Shown here one piece after another: positions 23,743 to 62,924 of a stretch of DNA of 64,000 bases. This stretch comes from Elusimicrobiota bacterium (lineage in GTDB: Bacteria > Elusimicrobiota > Elusimicrobia > UBA1565 > UBA9628): contig JACPFR010000018.1 in the NCBI GenBank assembly GCA_016182905.1, positions 62,001-126,000 on the forward strand, given 5' to 3'. The translations under genes were made by a program, and so were the position numbers. Each line of letters starts with the position of its first letter. The stretch's first letter is position 1. The notes beneath the pieces were generated by a model. The model was not told where the DNA came from, made no database searches, and was given only the letters and a program-made list of their open reading frames with translations.

Positions 23743-23754
23743 CGGCGGCGTCAG
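23739..23754. terminator. Hairpin containing both convergent stop codons
   Basis: CTGACG-GCGG-CGTCAG: a 6-bp stem in which the TGA stop of ackA and the TGA stop of the opposite-strand mmsA form the two arms. No U-tract on either strand. Confidence 0.4.
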
Positions 23755-25250
23755 CCGTGCGTGGGCATCGTGAACTGCGCGCCCTTGCGGATGCCGGCGG
23801 GCCAGCGCGAGGTCACGGTCTTCGTGCGCGTGTAGAAGCGCACGCCGTCGGTCCCGTGCTGGTTGGCGTCGCCGAAGGCGGAGTTCTTCCAGCCGCCGAA
23901 CGAATAGAACGCGAGCGGCACCGGGATCGGCACGTTGACGCCGACCATGCCGGCCTGCACGCGCGAGGAGAACTCCCGCGCGGCGTCGCCGTCGCGGGTG
24001 AAGATGGACACTCCGTTGCCGAACTCGTGGTCGTTGGGCAGGCGCAGGGCGTCCTCGAAGTCCTTCGCCCGCATGACGCACAGCACCGGTCCGAATATCT
24101 CTTCTTTGTAGATGCGCATCGCCGCCGTGACCCCGTCGAAGAGGCAGCCGCCGAGGAAGAATCCCTTCTCGTGGCCCGGCACCTTCACGCCGCGCCCGTC
24201 GACGACGAGCTTCGCGCCTTCCTTGACGCCCGCCTCGACGTACTCGATCACCTTGGCGCGGTGCGCGCCCGTGACGAGCGGCCCCATGTCGGAGTCCTTT
24301 TCGGTCGGCAGGCCGACCTTCAAGCCCTTGAGACGCTCCTTCAGCAGCGCGATCAGCTTGTCGGCCGTCTCGTCGCCGACGGCGACCGCGACGGAGATCG
24401 CCATGCAGCGCTCCCCGGCCGAGCCGTACGCCGCGCCCATCAGCGCGTCCGCGGCCTGGTCCAGATCGGCGTCGGGCATCACGATCATGTGGTTCTTGGC
24501 GCCGCCCATCGCCTGCACGCGCTTGCCGTGCGCGGACGCCGTCGAGTAGACATGACGCGCGATGGGCGTCGAGCCGACGAAGCTCACGGCCTGGACGCGC
24601 GGGTCGGTCAGCAAGGCGTCCACCGCCTCCTTGTCCCCGAGCACGACGTTGAGAACGCCGGGGGGGCCGCCGGCCTCGAGGAAGAGCTCCGCCAGGCGCA
24701 GCGGGCACGAGGGGTCCTTCTCCGACGGTTTGAGGATGAAGGTATTGCCGCAGGCGATCGCGACCGCCGACATCCACAGCGGGACCATGGCCGGGAAGTT
24801 GAAGGGCGTGATGCCCGCCACGACGCCGAGCGGCTGGCGCATCGAGTGCATGTCGACGCCGGTGGAGACGCCGGGGGAGAACTCTCCTTTCAGGAGGTGC
24901 GGGATGCCGCAGGCGAACTCGACGACCTCGTTGCCGCGGATCAGGGACCCCTTGGCGTCGGCGTGGACCTTGCCGTGCTCGGAGGAGATCAGATCCGCGA
25001 TCTCGTCGGCGTGCTTCTCGAGCAGGGCCTTGAACTTGAACATGACTCGCGCGCGCGCGATGGGGGAGGCGGCGGCCCAGGCCGGGAAGGCCTCCGCGGC
25101 GTTCGCGACGGCGGCCTCGACCTCGGATTTGGAGGCGAACGGGGCGCGCGAGGCGACGAGGCCCGTCGACGGGTTGAAGACGTCGCCGAAGCGTCCGCTC
25201 TTGCCGGACACCTTCTTTCCGCCGATGAAATGTCGAAGCTCTTGAGGCAT
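23751..25250 (-). CDS. mmsA: CoA-acylating methylmalonate-semialdehyde dehydrogenase
   Basis: A 499-aa ALDH of the MmsA class: [53 protein letters not shown] and the catalytic Cys in [14 protein letters not shown]. The AKNH segment replaces the catalytic Glu region of ordinary ALDHs, as expected for CoA-dependent members. It converts (methyl)malonate semialdehyde to propionyl- or acetyl-CoA in valine, inositol or beta-alanine breakdown. GGAGG lies 4-8 nt before the ATG. It stands alone here, without other valine genes. Confidence 0.92.
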
Positions 25251-25424
25251 GAGTCCTCCGGGCGGCGATTTCGCCGCCTGGATTATTGTACCTCAACTCA
25301 GGCGCGTCCCATGGAGGGTTTGCAGATGCCCTGTATTTCGAGGCCGTTCCGGGGCTACAAAACCGCAGCGAAAACTTATTCCCTTCGCCATGGCGGGCGG
25401 AGGGATAATCGGATTGAGTTTGCC

Positions 25425-25619
25425 ATGAGCAAGCCGAACATCAAGGCACAACGTCTGGCCGCGCTGTTCTTGCTTGGCAACGCGCTCTTCAACTATCCCC
25501 TGCTGGCGCTCTTCAACCGGCCCGTGATGCTGGGCGGATTTCCGCTGTTGCTTGTGTATATGTTCTCCGCCTGGGCGCTCCTGATCGTTCTCCTGGCGCT
25601 GGCGAGCGAGAGGAAATAG
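25425..25619 (+). CDS. Small two-helix membrane protein upstream of the symporter fusion
   Basis: 64 aa with two hydrophobic segments (RLAALFLLGNALFNYPLLALF and LLLVYMFSAWALLIVLLAL) and short basic ends. It ends 2 nt before the GTG of the symporter-GGDEF-EAL gene, so the two are co-translated. Small proteins of this kind (DUF485/DUF3311-like) commonly precede sodium:solute symporter genes. The frame is open further upstream with an ATG at 25327, but the 25425 start fits the family size. Confidence 0.7.
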   Translation: MSKPNIKAQRLAALFLLGNALFNYPLLALFNRPVMLGGFPLLLVYMFSAWALLIVLLALASERK

Positions 25620-25621
25620 CC

Positions 25622-28600
25622 GTGCCGGCCTGGGTCATCGTCCTCGCCGGCGGGTCCTACCTCGGTCTGCTCTTCGTCATCGCCTACCGCGGCGACAAGG
25701 CGGCCGATGCCGGACGCAGCATGATCGCCAATCCCTACGTGTACGCGCTATCGCTCGGCGTCTACGCCACCGCCTGGACGTACTACGGCAGCGTCGGTCG
25801 CGCCGCCGCCAGCGGCGTCGGCTTCCTGCCCGTCCACCTCGGCCCGACCATCATGGCCGCCCTGTGGTGGGCGGTGCTGCGCAAGATCATCCGCATCGCC
25901 AAGGACAACCGCATTACCTCGCTTGCCGACTTCATCTCCTCGCGCTACGGAAAAAGCGCGGCGCTGGCCGGTCTGACGACGGTGATCGCGGCGGCCGGCG
26001 TCACGCCCTACATCTCCCTGCAGTTGAAAGCGGTCTCCACCAGCTTCACCGTCCTGCGCGCCTATCCCGAGATCCTGACGATCGCGCCGGGGGCGCAAAG
26101 GGTCTGGCACGACACCTCGTTCTACACCGCCCTGATACTGGCCGCCTTCACGCTCGTCTTCGGCACCCGCAAGCTCGACGCAGCCGAGCGCCACGAGGGC
26201 ATGGTCGCGGCGATCGCCTTCGAATCGGTGATCAAGCTCCTGGCCTTCCTCGCCGTCGGCGTCTACGTCACCTGGTTCCTGTTCGACGGCTTCACCGACA
26301 TCTTCGCCCGGGCGGCCCGGGTGCCCCGCCTCGCCTCGGAGTTCACCATCGGCGGCGGAGAGGTCGACATCTACCACAGCTGGGCCTCGAGCATCTCGCT
26401 GGCTTTCCTCGGCATGCTGGCCAGCCTGTTCCTGCCGCGGCAGTTCCAGCTGGCGGTGGTCGAAAACGTCGACGAGGCCCACTTGAACAAGGCGATCTGG
26501 CTCTTTCCTCTCTATCTCTTCCTGTTCAACATCTTCACCTTCTCCGTCGCCTACGGCGGCGCTCTGAGCTTCCCCGACGGCCGCGTGGACCCCGACACCT
26601 ACGTCCTCGCCGTGCCGATGTCCGGACAGCAGCGAGCCCTGGCCCTGGTCGCGTTCCTCGGCGGATTATCGGCCGCCACCGGCATGGTGATCGTCGAGAC
26701 CATCGCGCTGTCGTCGATGGTCTGCAACGACCTGGTGATGCCGGTCCTTCTCCGCATCAAGCCGCTGCGCCTGTCCGGACGCGCCGACCTCACCGGCCTC
26801 CTGCTGGCCATCCGGCGCGGCGCGGTCGTGCTCATCCTGCTGTGCGGCTACGCCTATTGCCGCATGGCCGGAGAAGCCTACGCCCTCGTCGAGATCGGCC
26901 TGATCTCCTTCACCGCCGTCGCGCAGTTCGGACCGGCGCTGCTCGGCGGGCTCTACTGGAAAGGGGGCACGCGGAACGGGGCGCTGGCCGGTCTCGGAGC
27001 CGGATTCCTGGTCTGGGCTTACACCTTGATCCTGCCGACCTTCGCACGTTCCGGCTGGCTGCCGATGCCGCTCGTCGAACGGGGCCCCTTCTCGATCGAC
27101 CTCCTGCGGCCGCTCGCCCTCTTCGGCCTGGAGGGCCTCGACAATATCTCCCACGCCGTTCTCTGGAGCATGTTCGCCAATATCGGCGCCTACCTGACGG
27201 TGTCGATCATGAGCGGCCAGAGCTCCGTCGAGCGGACGCAAGCGGCGCTCTTCGTCGACGTCTTCAAGCACGACCGGGGCGCCGAGCGGACCTGGCGGAC
27301 GAGCGGTTCGCTGCCGGATCTCCAGGCCCTGATGAGACGCATCCTCGGCGCCGAAGGCGCCGAACGGGCGTTCGCCGACTATGCCCTGGAGCATGGCCTG
27401 GGGCCGCCGTGGAAGATCGACGCGGAACTGGCCCGCTATTGCGAGGCGAGGCTAGCCGGCGTCGTCGGCTCCGCCTCCGCGCGGGTCCTGCTCTCCTCGG
27501 TGGTCGAGGAAGACATGCTGCGCGACAGCCTGACCGGCCTGCCCAACCGCTCGCTGCTGTTGACCCGGGTGGAGGATGCCCTGGACCGGAGCCGGCTCGA
27601 ATCCGGCCGCCGTTTCGCGCTGCTCTTCATCGTCCTCGACCGCTTCCGCACGATCACCTACAGCCTCGGCGGCGCCGGCGGCGACGAGCTTCTGATCGCC
27701 GTCGCGCGGCGCCTCGGAGACGCCCTTTACCTCGGCGACACTTTGGCCCGCGTCGGAGACGCGAGCTTCGCTGTACTCCTCGAGGCGTCGAAGGACGCGG
27801 ACGAGGCGGTGCGATTCTCCGACAAGCTCCAGGACGCGCTCTCGGCCGGCTTCCGCGTGGACGGCAAGGAGGTGTTCACCGCCGTCAGCATCGGGATCGC
27901 CCATGGCCGGCCGAGCTACGCCGGCGCGAGCGACCTCCTGCGCGACGCCGAGACCGCCGCGCATACCGCATTGCGGCTGGGCGGGGCGCGGCACGAGGTG
28001 TTCGCCGCCGGCATGCGCGAGCTCGTCGTCGCCCAGCTGGAAGTGGAGACCGCGCTGCGCCACGCGGTCATCGGGGGCAAGGAATTCCGCGTCTATTACC
28101 AGCCCGTCGTCTCGCTGAAGACGGGCCGGCTGACGGGGTTCGAAGCGCTCGTGCGCATGCGTCGCTCCGACGGCAGCCTGCGGCCCCCGAGCGAATTCAT
28201 CCCGCTCGCCGAGGAGACCGGGCTCATCGTCACCATCGGTCTTTGGGTGCTGACGGAGGCCTGCGGACAGATGCGCGCCTGGCAGCGCTCCCACCCGGAG
28301 CATCCGCCTATGCAGGTGAGCGTCAACCTCGCCGGACGCCAGTTCGCCCAGCCCGACCTGCCGGAACAGATCGCGGCAGTGCTGGCGAAGACCGGTCTCG
28401 ATCATGGCAGCCTCAAGCTCGAAGTGACCGAAACGGTGATCATGGAGCACAGCGCGGCGGCGGCGGCGGTGCTCGGCCGCTTGCGCTCCCTCGGCATAAA
28501 GCTGCTGATGGACGATTTCGGCACCGGCTATTCCTCGCTCTCCTACCTGCACCGCTTCCCGGTCGACACGCTCAAGATCGACGCCTCGTTCGTGCGCCGG

Positions 28601-28816
28601 ATGGACGTCGACCGAAAGGACGCGGACATCATCGGGGCCATCGTCACCTTGGCTCATACCCTGGGCATGGACGTCGTCGCCGAAGGCGTCGAGAATGCCG
28701 AGCAGCTGGCTCAACTGCGCGCGCTGGGGGTGGAATACGGCCAGGGCTATCACTTCGGCCGGCCGGTCGACGCGGCGGCGGCCGAGGCGCTGATCGGCGT
28801 CCGGCCGACCTGGTAG
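25622..28816 (+). CDS. Sodium:solute-symporter / degenerate GGDEF / EAL fusion (putative c-di-GMP phosphodiesterase sensor)
   Basis: 1064 aa from a GTG. Residues ~1-500 are an SLC5-type symporter core of about 13 helices (YATAWTYYGSVGRAAASGVG near the start), as in CbrA-like transporter-sensors. A soluble linker follows (~520-620, ...AGVVGSASARVLLSSVV). The GGDEF domain at ~625-790 has LRDSLTGLPNRSLL, but the signature is RVGDASF in place of RxGGDEF, so cyclase activity is probably lost. The EAL domain at ~805-1055 has FEALVR, DDFGTGYSSLSYL and AEGVE intact. It is predicted to bind or transport a solute and change c-di-GMP. Known CbrA proteins carry a histidine kinase instead. Confidence 0.85.
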   Translation: MPAWVIVLAGGSYLGLLFVIAYRGDKAADAGRSMIANPYVYALSLGVYATAWTYYGSVGRAAASGVGFLPVHLGPTIMAALWWAVLRKIIRIAKDNRITSLADFISSRYGKSAALAGLTTVIAAAGVTPYISLQLKAVSTSFTVLRAYPEILTIAPGAQRVWHDTSFYTALILAAFTLVFGTRKLDAAERHEGMVAAIAFESVIKLLAFLAVGVYVTWFLFDGFTDIFARAARVPRLASEFTIGGGEVDIYHSWASSISLAFLGMLASLFLPRQFQLAVVENVDEAHLNKAIWLFPLYLFLFNIFTFSVAYGGALSFPDGRVDPDTYVLAVPMSGQQRALALVAFLGGLSAATGMVIVETIALSSMVCNDLVMPVLLRIKPLRLSGRADLTGLLLAIRRGAVVLILLCGYAYCRMAGEAYALVEIGLISFTAVAQFGPALLGGLYWKGGTRNGALAGLGAGFLVWAYTLILPTFARSGWLPMPLVERGPFSIDLLRPLALFGLEGLDNISHAVLWSMFANIGAYLTVSIMSGQSSVERTQAALFVDVFKHDRGAERTWRTSGSLPDLQALMRRILGAEGAERAFADYALEHGLGPPWKIDAELARYCEARLAGVVGSASARVLLSSVVEEDMLRDSLTGLPNRSLLLTRVEDALDRSRLESGRRFALLFIVLDRFRTITYSLGGAGGDELLIAVARRLGDALYLGDTLARVGDASFAVLLEASKDADEAVRFSDKLQDALSAGFRVDGKEVFTAVSIGIAHGRPSYAGASDLLRDAETAAHTALRLGGARHEVFAAGMRELVVAQLEVETALRHAVIGGKEFRVYYQPVVSLKTGRLTGFEALVRMRRSDGSLRPPSEFIPLAEETGLIVTIGLWVLTEACGQMRAWQRSHPEHPPMQVSVNLAGRQFAQPDLPEQIAAVLAKTGLDHGSLKLEVTETVIMEHSAAAAAVLGRLRSLGIKLLMDDFGTGYSSLSYLHRFPVDTLKIDASFVRRMDVDRKDADIIGAIVTLAHTLGMDVVAEGVENAEQLAQLRALGVEYGQGYHFGRPVDAAAAEALIGVRPTW

Positions 28817-28899
28817 ACTCAGCCGGCGACGATCGTGCAGGCATAGAACCTCCCCGGGCCGACATCCTTTATTGTGAATCCATTTGCTTTAATACACTC

Positions 28900-29060
28900 G
28901 CCGCACCCCGACGCATCCGCAGGAAGCCGGTGTAATTCCGGCACGGTACCGCCACTGTAAACGGGTAGCCCGCCGCAATGTCACTGTCCTAGAAAGGATG
29001 GGAAGACGCGGCAATGGGCGACGATCCGTAAGTCAGGAGACCTGCGTCGGGCAACCTCGA
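28900..29060 (+). promoter_or_regulatory. Cobalamin (adenosylcobalamin) riboswitch
   Basis: Conserved core elements are present in order: GAAGCCGGTGTAATTCCGGC, the GGTACCGCCACTGTAAACGGG block, GGGAAGACGCGG and the B12 box around AAGTCAGGAGACCTGC. An outer helix forms between CCCGACGC (28907-28914) and GCGTCGGG (29044-29051). The Shine-Dalgarno AAGGAGGA follows at 29063-29070, with CCTC just before it that could sequester it. Control at translation is inferred. Cobalamin should repress the receptor gene downstream. Confidence 0.93.
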
Positions 29061-29076
29061 GTAAGGAGGACCACCC

Positions 29077-31128
29077 ATGGTCCCGACACGCATCGCCGTC
29101 CTTGCCGCCGTCCTAGCCGTCCTTCCCGTCGCCGCCCGCCCCGCCGCCCTCACCGGAGACTCGCTCTTCCGGGATATCCGCTCCGCCTCGCGACTGCCCG
29201 ACGCGCCGATCGACGAGCGCCGCTATCCCGGAACCGCCCGGGTCCTCGACGCCGCCGACCTGCGCCGGCTCGGAGGCGACACCGTGGCCGACGCCATCGG
29301 CCGTTTGCCGGGGGTCGTCCTTTATAACCAGTCCGGGAACCCGTTCCAGCCCACGCTCGACCTTCGCGGCTGGAACGCCTCGCCCGGGCCCGCGACGATC
29401 GTCCTCGTCGACGGCGTGCGCGTCAACGAGGCCGACCTGGGCCAGGTGAACTGGCAGCTGATCCCGCTGGAGACCGTCGAAAGGATCGAGGTCCTGCCCG
29501 GACCGAGCACGATCTACGGCAAGGACGCATTGGCCGGGGTCGTCGCGGTCTTCACCAAGCGGGGGACCAAGAAGACCGCGGCGACGGCCTCGGCGGGCCT
29601 GGGCTCGTACGGCCGGGCCGAGGCCGACGCGTCCGCGCGCGGGACGGCGGGAGGCTGCGACTACGCCGTGTCCGGCGTGCACGCGCGAGAGGACGGCTAC
29701 CGCCGCGGCGCCTCCTCGCGCATGACCGGCGTCAACGGCAGCCTCGGCCGCCGCACCTCGAAAGACGACCTGCGGCTGACCTACGCCTTCGCCGACGACC
29801 GCCTCGACCAGGGCGGCTCGCTGACCCAGGGGGAGTTCGAGGCCGACCCGCGCCAGCGCGTCAGCCTCGTGAAGACGGACAGCCTCCTCAACGCCGTGAC
29901 CCTCAACGGCCGCCGCACCCTCTTCGAGGGACTGTCGGGCGCGGTCATGGCGCAGTTCCGCGAGCGCCTGGAGAACACGCCGCTCAACCGCGGCCGCTCC
30001 TCGACGTCGGCCAGCTCGGCGAAGCTGCGCGGCGCCGGCGGGGCGGGGCAGCTCACCGCGGACGGCGAGCTCGCCGGCCGGCGGCTGACCTTGAACGGAG
30101 GCGTGGAGGGCGCGCGCGCCGACGCCGAGTCCTCCTCGGCCGGCGACTTCGGCGGGTTCCCGTTCCGCAGCGCGAGCGGCACGCGCGACACGCGCCTCGG
30201 CTCGTGGCTGACGGGCACGGCGGACCTGTGGCCCTCGGGACCCGTCCTGACCGCGGGCGCGCGTTGGGACCGCACGACGATCGACTATAAGAACCGGATC
30301 ACGCCGGCCAACGACGGGTTCCGCTCGTACGCGCGGACCTCGCCGCGCGTCGGGATGAACTGGGAGGTCGGGGGCGGCGCCTCTTTGCGCGCCTCGTACG
30401 CCGAGGCGTTCCGCGCTCCGACCTCCGGCGAGCTGTCGGCGCTGGGACCGTTCCCCTCGACCCCCGATCTTCGCCCCGTGAAGACGCGGAGCTGGGAGAC
30501 CGGCGCGGGCTGGCGCCACCCCGCGTGGGGGGAGGCCGACGTGACCCTGTACCGCGCGCTCGCCGAGGACGAGATCTACGCCGTCTTCGACCCCGTCGCC
30601 GGCTTCGGCCAGAACCGGAACATCGACCGGACCCGACGCCAAGGGGTCGAGGTCTCTCTGCGCCCGCGCGTCGGGAAGGCCGACGTCCACGTCGACTACT
30701 CGTACACGGAGGCGACCTTCCAAGGCCGCTTCCAGCTCGACAAGGCCCCGTTCCCGGCCACGCAGACGGTGACCCCGGGCTCCGAGATCCCGATGGTCCC
30801 GCGCCATCGACTATCAGTCGGCGCGTCCGTTCCTCTGCCTCGGGGCTTTCGCGCCGGCGCCGGGGGCCAGTGCGTGGGCTCGAGCCGCTTCTTCGGCGAC
30901 GAGGCCAACCTGGAGCGCAAGCTCCCCGGCTACTGCACGCTCGACCTCGACGCCTCGCTCGAGCGGGGGGCCTGGACCGTCAGCCTGGGAGCGAAGAACG
31001 TCCTCGACGAGGGCTACGCGACGCGCGGCATCCTGTCCGCGTCGGGCGGGCGCCTCGAGCGCTTCGTCGTGCCCGCCGTCGGGCGCACGGTCTCCGCGCG
31101 CCTGCGCTGGAGGTTCGCCGCGCCCTGA
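29077..31128 (+). CDS. btuB: TonB-dependent outer-membrane receptor, BtuB-like (cobalamin/corrinoid uptake)
   Basis: 683 aa: signal peptide (to about residue 24), a plug domain with VADAIGRLPGVVLYNQSGN, LRGWNASPGPATIVLVDGVRV and VERIEVLPGPSTIYGKDALAGVVAVFTK, then a ~22-strand barrel region. The chain ends RLRWRFAAP, so the last strand is followed by three residues rather than ending in Phe. Substrate assignment rests on the cobalamin riboswitch in its leader. AAGGAGGA 6-14 nt before the ATG decides the start. No BtuCDF genes are in the window. The gene ends at a terminator that contains a promoter. Confidence 0.88.
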   Translation: MVPTRIAVLAAVLAVLPVAARPAALTGDSLFRDIRSASRLPDAPIDERRYPGTARVLDAADLRRLGGDTVADAIGRLPGVVLYNQSGNPFQPTLDLRGWNASPGPATIVLVDGVRVNEADLGQVNWQLIPLETVERIEVLPGPSTIYGKDALAGVVAVFTKRGTKKTAATASAGLGSYGRAEADASARGTAGGCDYAVSGVHAREDGYRRGASSRMTGVNGSLGRRTSKDDLRLTYAFADDRLDQGGSLTQGEFEADPRQRVSLVKTDSLLNAVTLNGRRTLFEGLSGAVMAQFRERLENTPLNRGRSSTSASSAKLRGAGGAGQLTADGELAGRRLTLNGGVEGARADAESSSAGDFGGFPFRSASGTRDTRLGSWLTGTADLWPSGPVLTAGARWDRTTIDYKNRITPANDGFRSYARTSPRVGMNWEVGGGASLRASYAEAFRAPTSGELSALGPFPSTPDLRPVKTRSWETGAGWRHPAWGEADVTLYRALAEDEIYAVFDPVAGFGQNRNIDRTRRQGVEVSLRPRVGKADVHVDYSYTEATFQGRFQLDKAPFPATQTVTPGSEIPMVPRHRLSVGASVPLPRGFRAGAGGQCVGSSRFFGDEANLERKLPGYCTLDLDASLERGAWTVSLGAKNVLDEGYATRGILSASGGRLERFVVPAVGRTVSARLRWRFAAP

Positions 31129-61874: not shown

Positions 61875-62924
61875 GTGTCCAGAACCGCCGTGGCGTCCGC
61901 GCGCGTCTTCCTCGTGGAATCGAGGCTCAAGCGGCCCTTCATCACCGCCCAGGGCCGGAGGGAGTCGACCGTGAACGCGGCCGTCCTCCTGCACCTGAAG
62001 GGCGGCGCGGAAGGCTATGGGGAAGCGTCGACCTCGATCGCGCAGAAGCACCTGACCCCGGCCGCCCTGCGCCGGGCCCTCGAGAGGATGGCCGTCCGCG
62101 CCCGCGGGCGGGACGCCCGCGACTGGCGCGCGCTCGTCGACGAGGCCTGGGCGCGGCACGGGGACCTGAGCCCCGCGGTCGCCGCCTTCGAGGCGGCCCT
62201 GCTGTCGGCGCTGGCGGCCGAGGCCGGGACGGACCTCGCCCGCTGGCTCGGCGGGGCGTCCCGGCGCCTCGAGACGGACCTGACGATCTCGGCCTCGAAC
62301 GACCCCGAGGAGACGCGCTCGGCCGCCGCCGAGGCCGCCGCCGCCGGCTACCGGACGCTCAAGGTCAAGATCGGGGGGAGGGCGGACGACGACATGGCGC
62401 GCGTGCTCGCCGTGCGCGCGGCGGCGCCGAAGGCCCGCCTCCTGCTCGACGGCAACCAGGGGTTCACGCCGGCGGGGGCGCTGCGCTTCGTCTCGGCGGT
62501 GCTGAAGACGGGCGCGGACGTGGAGCTGTTCGAGCAGCCGACGCCGAAGGGGGACCTCGCGGCGCTGGCCTTCGTCTCCCGGCGCTGCCCCGTCCCGGTC
62601 GCCGCCGACGAGAGCGTCGCGACGCCGGCGGACGCCGCGCGCGCCGCGGACGCGGGCGTGACCGCGATCAACGTCAAGCTCGCGAAGTCGGGCGTCTCCC
62701 GCGGGCTCGAGATCGCGGCGGTCGCGCGGGCGGCGGGGCTGCCCTTGATGATCGGCTGCATGGCCGAGACCGCGCGGGGGCTCGCGGCGAGCGTCCACCT
62801 GGCGCTCGGCACCGGCTTCTTCCGCTGGCACGACCTCGACAGCGACGTCCTGCTCGTCGAGGACGCGGGAGAGCGCCGCGAGGCCGGCTGGGTCCGGCGC
62901 GGACGCTTCGCGTCCTTAGACTAG
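61875..62924 (+). CDS. Dipeptide epimerase (enolase superfamily, L-Ala-D/L-Glu epimerase-like)
   Basis: 349 aa from GTG, 6 nt after TATCGT. Enolase-superfamily sites are LKVKIGG (KxK, catalytic Lys), metal ligands Asp in LLLDGNQGF, Glu in ELFEQPT and Asp in VAADES, second catalytic Lys in INVKLAKSG, and substrate loop GCMAET with HDLDSD near the end. The LDGNQG...GCMAE form is that of dipeptide epimerases, linked to murein-peptide recycling. Divergent from the HEAT-like gene; convergent and overlapping with the phosphoesterase. Confidence 0.88.
   Translation: MSRTAVASARVFLVESRLKRPFITAQGRRESTVNAAVLLHLKGGAEGYGEASTSIAQKHLTPAALRRALERMAVRARGRDARDWRALVDEAWARHGDLSPAVAAFEAALLSALAAEAGTDLARWLGGASRRLETDLTISASNDPEETRSAAAEAAAAGYRTLKVKIGGRADDDMARVLAVRAAAPKARLLLDGNQGFTPAGALRFVSAVLKTGADVELFEQPTPKGDLAALAFVSRRCPVPVAADESVATPADAARAADAGVTAINVKLAKSGVSRGLEIAAVARAAGLPLMIGCMAETARGLAASVHLALGTGFFRWHDLDSDVLLVEDAGERREAGWVRRGRFASLD

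Follow-up and report, generated by a model that had tools for sequence, protein, structure and literature searches.

Transporter-sensors of the CbrA type carry an SLC5 transporter fused to a histidine kinase, and their transporter half may or may not signal: CbrA itself has a PAS domain, a partner regulator and a kinase that works independently of SLC5. The locus described here raises this question in a different form, namely whether an SLC5-type input can govern the breakdown of c-di-GMP within a single polypeptide, and how a gene of this kind came to lie in the genome of a member of the Elusimicrobiota. The window, as the analysed stretch of 64,000 nt is called throughout, corresponds to positions 62,001 to 126,000 of contig JACPFR010000018.1 (assembly GCA_016182905.1). 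An earlier reading of the sequence alone proposed that it encodes an SLC5 domain joined to a degenerate GGDEF and an intact EAL domain, preceded at a distance of 2 nt by a gene for a 64 aa two-helix protein. Both genes are real, and comprise the following features.

25425..25619, + strand: 64 aa two-helix hairpin membrane protein, predicted CbrX-like small subunit (conservation, invariant residues, purifying selection)
25622..28816, + strand: SLC5-STAC-GGDEF-EAL protein, 1064 aa (Pfam, phmmer, predicted structure)
25622..27241, + strand: SLC5 transporter domain, residues ~1-540 (phmmer match to PDB 10ed; fold match to CHT1, SGLT1 and NIS)
26234..26236, + strand: K205, equivalent to CbrA K196 at the Na2 site (alignment; role from PMC13022988)
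27242..27505, + strand: STAC four-helix domain, residues ~541-628 (10ed alignment; helices of the model)
27521..27991, + strand: degenerate GGDEF domain, residues 634-790, with the signature GDASF at 27755-27769 (Pfam, residue table)
28052..28765, + strand: EAL phosphodiesterase domain with the full catalytic residue set (Pfam, residue table)

The reading frames of both genes are unbroken, with the stop codon of the small ORF separated by two bases from the GTG start of the large one. As 11 homologues share the architecture, a frameshift joining two separate genes is excluded. The large protein aligns over its residues 7-622 with the SLC5-STAC chain of CbrA (PDB 10ed; phmmer E=2.4e-66). Neither the Pfam SSF model nor a search of NCBIfam gave an SSF match in the transporter half, hence the assignment to SLC5 rests on the 10ed match and on the fold. 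The predicted structure resembles the SLC5 transporters CHT1, SGLT1 and NIS (Z ~30, rmsd 3.1-3.7 Å over 440-470 residues), and this LeuT-type fold, together with the sequence kinship, places the transporter half in the SLC5 family; the AlphaFold2 model has a mean pLDDT of 77.7 and a pTM of 0.60, a moderate confidence at which the packing of the domains is not readable from it. The 10ed alignment continues through the STAC domain, which sits between the transporter and GGDEF and has helices at residues 564-625 in the model. The only output domains recognised by Pfam are GGDEF (residues 634-786, E=1.5e-27) and EAL (residues 811-1048, E=3.7e-77); DHp and CA kinase domains were not found, and there is no PAS domain between STAC and GGDEF. 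Hence the three domains and the GDASF signature read from the letters are borne out, although the STAC domain, the absence of PAS and the Na2-site lysine had been overlooked.

The proposed kinship to transporter-sensors of the CbrA type, with a c-di-GMP output, is likewise supported. The protein shares with the CbrA/CbrX system of Pseudomonas (SLC5-STAC-PAS-histidine kinase) homology over the 615 residues of SLC5-STAC, the lysine in the Na2 site and a hairpin gene upstream, but its output is GGDEF-EAL rather than PAS and histidine kinase, and it has no partner response regulator. Closer relatives of the input are betaproteobacterial SLC5-STAC histidine kinases of around 920 aa, in which PAS was not detected: their SLC5-STAC regions are 58-65% identical to that of the window protein, the pocket is nearly the same and the upstream hairpin gene belongs to the same family, but the output is HisKA-HATPase instead.

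Scanning 84,980 species genomes, together with plasmids, yielded 11 further SLC5-STAC-GGDEF-EAL proteins, a lower bound given that short exact peptide matches were needed for detection. They come from the Rhodocyclales, Burkholderiales, Pseudomonas and one Lysobacteraceae bin, the individual sources being that bin, Pseudomonas benzenivorans, P. tumuqii, Thauera terpenica, three Azoarcus, Dechloromonas, Noviherbaspirillum, Aromatoleum and Rhodoferax. Across 299 genomes of the genus Pseudomonas, full-length matches were confined to the two species already found. The remaining matches of the wider scan, around 920 aa long, were histidine kinases where checked. In a tree of the SLC5-STAC region, whose rooting is uncertain owing to a very distant outgroup, the 12 members form one clade (support 100) among the histidine kinases, and the window protein is nested within it (support 97), its nearest relative being that of Rhodoferax with 77% identity. 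Because the GGDEF-EAL clade branches among histidine kinases, one input has come to be combined with two different outputs, and on this phylogeny the clade is an output swap. P. benzenivorans and P. tumuqii also carry a 62%-identical version of kinase length in addition to a true CbrA (G341:C20:67152-68549 and G342:C13:130058-131455).

Fusions of STAC with GGDEF or diguanylate cyclase domains have been mentioned before (PMC5715377, PMC7096432), a precedent that the sequence-only reading had missed. The SLC5-STAC-GGDEF proteins of Korycinski et al. 2015, as represented in PMC5715377, share STAC and a c-di-GMP-type domain with the window protein; within that account and the rest of the literature searched, the combination with an EAL hydrolase and a dead GGDEF is not described. 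No description of SLC5-STAC-GGDEF-EAL was found in this literature, though Korycinski et al. 2015 could list the architecture. With that proviso, the architecture counts as a variant of the CbrA-type transporter-sensors not described so far, and it is not unique to the window. A second pairing of SLC5-STAC with a c-di-GMP hydrolase fold was observed in another family of the host phylum (L102:3233-6292, - strand), where a 1019 aa protein, again with a small hairpin ORF upstream, combines SLC5-STAC with GGDEF and an HD-GYP-type domain. It differs from the window protein in having HD-GYP in place of EAL, an intact GGDEF and a distant transporter (38% identity).

The catalytic state of the two output domains is uniform across the clade. 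In the alignment, E841, N902, E934, D964, D965, K985, E1021 and E1024 of the EAL domain are kept in all 12 members, and Q1041 in every member that reaches this position, one being truncated by the end of its contig; the window protein therefore has the Glu, Asn, Asp-Asp, Lys and Gln set of an EAL phosphodiesterase. In PleD, metal is bound by D327 and E370, guanine by N335 and D344, and the phosphates by K442 and R446 (PMC7288161). None of the 12 members has kept the equivalents of D327, N335, K442 and R446, which are V, T, L and G respectively in the window protein, and only that of D344 among the guanine ligands is retained. The GGDEF signature is also degenerate throughout, GDASF in the window having as counterparts GDDQF, HGQDF, SGQDF, GGESF, GGENF, GGDDF, GGDSF and PGESF, such that the GG[D/E]EF motif and these four GTP and metal residues of an active diguanylate cyclase are missing from the window protein. 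Within the clade, the transporter (66-78% identity) and EAL (69-80%) are the most conserved parts and GGDEF (52-67%) the least. With the EAL set kept and the four GTP and metal residues lost in every member, the protein should act solely as a phosphodiesterase, and the dead cyclase and intact EAL noted for one gene extend to the entire clade.

The best solved tandem matches of the GGDEF-EAL region are MorA and RmcA (5m3c). Both are around 42% identical to it, and RbdA 33%; the EAL active-site residues are the same, but in RmcA and MorA the GGDEF motif is intact, as are its Asp and Asn ligands, and in none of the three is the input a transporter. In RmcA, the GGDEF domain senses GTP (PMC7825114), and GTP bound there controls EAL. 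The structural kinship would fit an RmcA-type phosphodiesterase gated by GTP with a transporter input added, and a GTP-sensing GGDEF had been suggested for the window protein. However, the Asp, Asn, Lys and Arg positions on which such binding depends are replaced in all 12 members, which makes a GTP-sensing role unlikely and leaves GTP gating as a very improbable account of the whole protein.

The signal might also run in the opposite direction. LapD and FimX are degenerate GGDEF-EAL proteins that serve as c-di-GMP receptors, and an EAL domain acting mainly in this way could gate the uptake of a solute. A role for STAC in controlling the flow through SLC5 has indeed been suggested (PMC5715377). 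Yet the catalytic EAL residues are invariant in 12/12 members, unlike the non-catalytic domains of LapD and FimX, and among solved tandems RmcA and MorA come closest; hence this direction of signalling seems improbable, if less so than gating by GTP.

In the transporter, K205 corresponds to K196 of CbrA, the residue that occupies the Na2 site there (PMC13022988), and the lysine is present in 12/12 GGDEF-EAL members and 72/72 of the related kinases aligned. Since the residue is kept as in CbrA, the analogy with that protein makes coupling to protons likely (PMC7096432). The predicted pocket consists of Y48, T50, W52, T53, F68, H72 and F430, where CbrA has Y, S, W, A, F, Y and F (S53T, A56T and Y75H relative to CbrA); the position of CbrA F248 could not be aligned reliably to the window protein. 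H72 is the one unusual pocket position of the window copy, a point that speaks against the favoured reading given below. The Azoarcus and Aromatoleum members (L006, L007, L010 and L084) adjoin gbcA, gbcB, gbdR and a betaine/choline ABC transporter, genes of glycine-betaine catabolism. Their pocket reads F,T,W,G/S,F/Y,N,K,Q/L/F against Y,T,W,T,F,H,K,F in the window, suggesting a shift of substrate within the clade. Betaine was not assigned as the substrate of the window protein, given this difference in pocket and the unrelated neighbour genes of the other members. Nor was the top fold match to CHT1, a choline transporter, taken as a sign of specificity, CHT1 being tied with other SLC5 proteins.

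Homologues of the hairpin gene lie upstream of 12/12 GGDEF-EAL members and of nearly all the related kinase genes, with N23, P25, F30, P40, W50 and E62 invariant. Between the window and Rhodoferax (L012) copies dN is 0.15 and dS 0.63, from which the gene is under purifying selection; this, and its presence ahead of almost every relative, argue that the small ORF did not arise by chance. Pfam and NCBIfam gave no family for the small ORF, and neither single-sequence nor profile searches of the PDB gave a match. CbrX is a hairpin translationally coupled to CbrA (PMC6591292) that co-purifies with it and packs on TM3 and TM8, although it is dispensable for growth on histidine (PMC13022988). The 64 aa protein shares the two helices of CbrX and the position of its gene, next to and ahead of an SLC5-STAC gene, but is not recognisably CbrX in sequence: hhalign gave a probability of 60%, and the HMM scored CbrX no higher than shuffled CbrX. 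The suggestion that the 64 aa protein is a subunit of the large one thus gains from the conservation of the gene and from CbrX being a stably bound partner in the CbrA structure (PMC13022988), and by this analogy it is likely to be one.

We therefore favour, as moderately probable, the reading that the pair is an acquired transceptor cassette in which SLC5-STAC controls a phosphodiesterase through a dead GGDEF domain, with the hairpin protein on the transporter. The SLC5 part would be a proton-coupled transporter or sensor with STAC on its cytoplasmic face, where the domain packs in CbrA (PMC13022988). STAC would feed directly, with no PAS in between, into a GGDEF domain that serves as a structural relay, and the active EAL domain would cut c-di-GMP to pGpG. 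Most likely, occupancy or turnover of the transport site would shift STAC and the GGDEF-EAL dimer and so set the phosphodiesterase rate, whilst the hairpin would pack on the transporter in the way that CbrX does in the CbrA structure. The host is likely to contain c-di-GMP for such an enzyme to degrade, since the genome has ten GGDEF-domain matches (that of this protein included) and just one other EAL domain; the enzyme could therefore be of consequence to the cell.

Because PAS is absent, SLC5 and STAC are the only evident input. The experience with CbrA nevertheless gives reason for caution: no effect of histidine on its kinase activity was observed, the protein still activates its target without the SLC5 domain, deletion of STAC had little or only partial effect, and the transporter domain of CrbS can substitute for its own (PMC7096432, PMC5715377). 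Hence SLC5 may not be a signal input, and the window protein could be a membrane-anchored phosphodiesterase in which SLC5 only transports or anchors and EAL is constitutive or answers a cytoplasmic cue. This uncoupled alternative is the more serious of those considered but still doubtful, for the transport-site residues and K205 are conserved across the clade, STAC is retained, the fusion has been kept in 12 members, and there is no cytoplasmic sensor domain that could receive such a cue. A more specific proposition is that of a switch contained in one protein. A proton-coupled transport site, by being occupied or by turning over, would directly govern c-di-GMP hydrolysis, with STAC and the dead GGDEF domain as relay and the hairpin as a dedicated subunit; transporter inputs of this kind would have been combined with kinase, EAL and HD-GYP outputs on separate occasions. 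In our judgement this proposition stands at an even balance. With no PAS, no partner and a direct enzymatic output, coupling would be measurable in one purified protein; if present, it would link nutrient uptake directly to whether the cell leaves a biofilm or stays out of one.

How the pair reached this genome can be seen from its flanks.

25290..28875, no strand: inserted two-gene cassette, approximate extent (empty site in congener G009:C134, ends of flank homology)
23751..25250, - strand: host flank, methylmalonate-semialdehyde dehydrogenase (93-95% identical in three congeners)
28894..29063, + strand: host flank, cobalamin riboswitch (upstream of the TonB-dependent receptor)
29077..31128, + strand: host flank, TonB-dependent receptor (82-89% identical in four congeners)

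The large gene is absent from 18/18 other genomes of the host genus, and only 3/341 genomes of the host phylum, the window's own included, have an SLC5-STAC match. In the congener G009, on a short contig of 3.7 kb, the dehydrogenase adjoins the receptor and riboswitch, constituting an empty site: homology ends near 25251-25295 and resumes at 28870, with 27 bases between. A further congener, G007, is homologous along the dehydrogenase flank up to 25305. The insert of ~3.6 kb holds two genes only, so the neighbourhood is genuine host DNA rather than a contaminant contig. An artefact of fusion, assembly or binning would account for a gene that is foreign by phylogeny, but the flanks are 82-95% identical to those of congeners, the empty site fits an insertion and 11 homologues have the same architecture; this explanation is accordingly extremely improbable. 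Horizontal transfer of the two-gene cassette from a proteobacterium, a possibility raised in the sequence-only reading, is well supported by the tree position, the empty site, the absence from 18 congeners and the phylum survey. The argument from codon usage made in that reading is weak evidence of transfer, as the large ORF and the neighbouring genes are close in codon usage. As the clean insertion also shows, a switch of this kind can pass from one phylum to another as a unit of two genes.

An insertion borne by a transposon was considered and rejected, there being no transposase in the insert and only a 6 bp TATTGT at its edges. This motif, at 25284-25289 and 28870-28875, may represent a target duplication, microhomology or chance. 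On the downstream side, the genes preceding the cobalamin riboswitch and TonB-dependent receptor differ between congeners; the receptor is likely to be one for vitamin B12.
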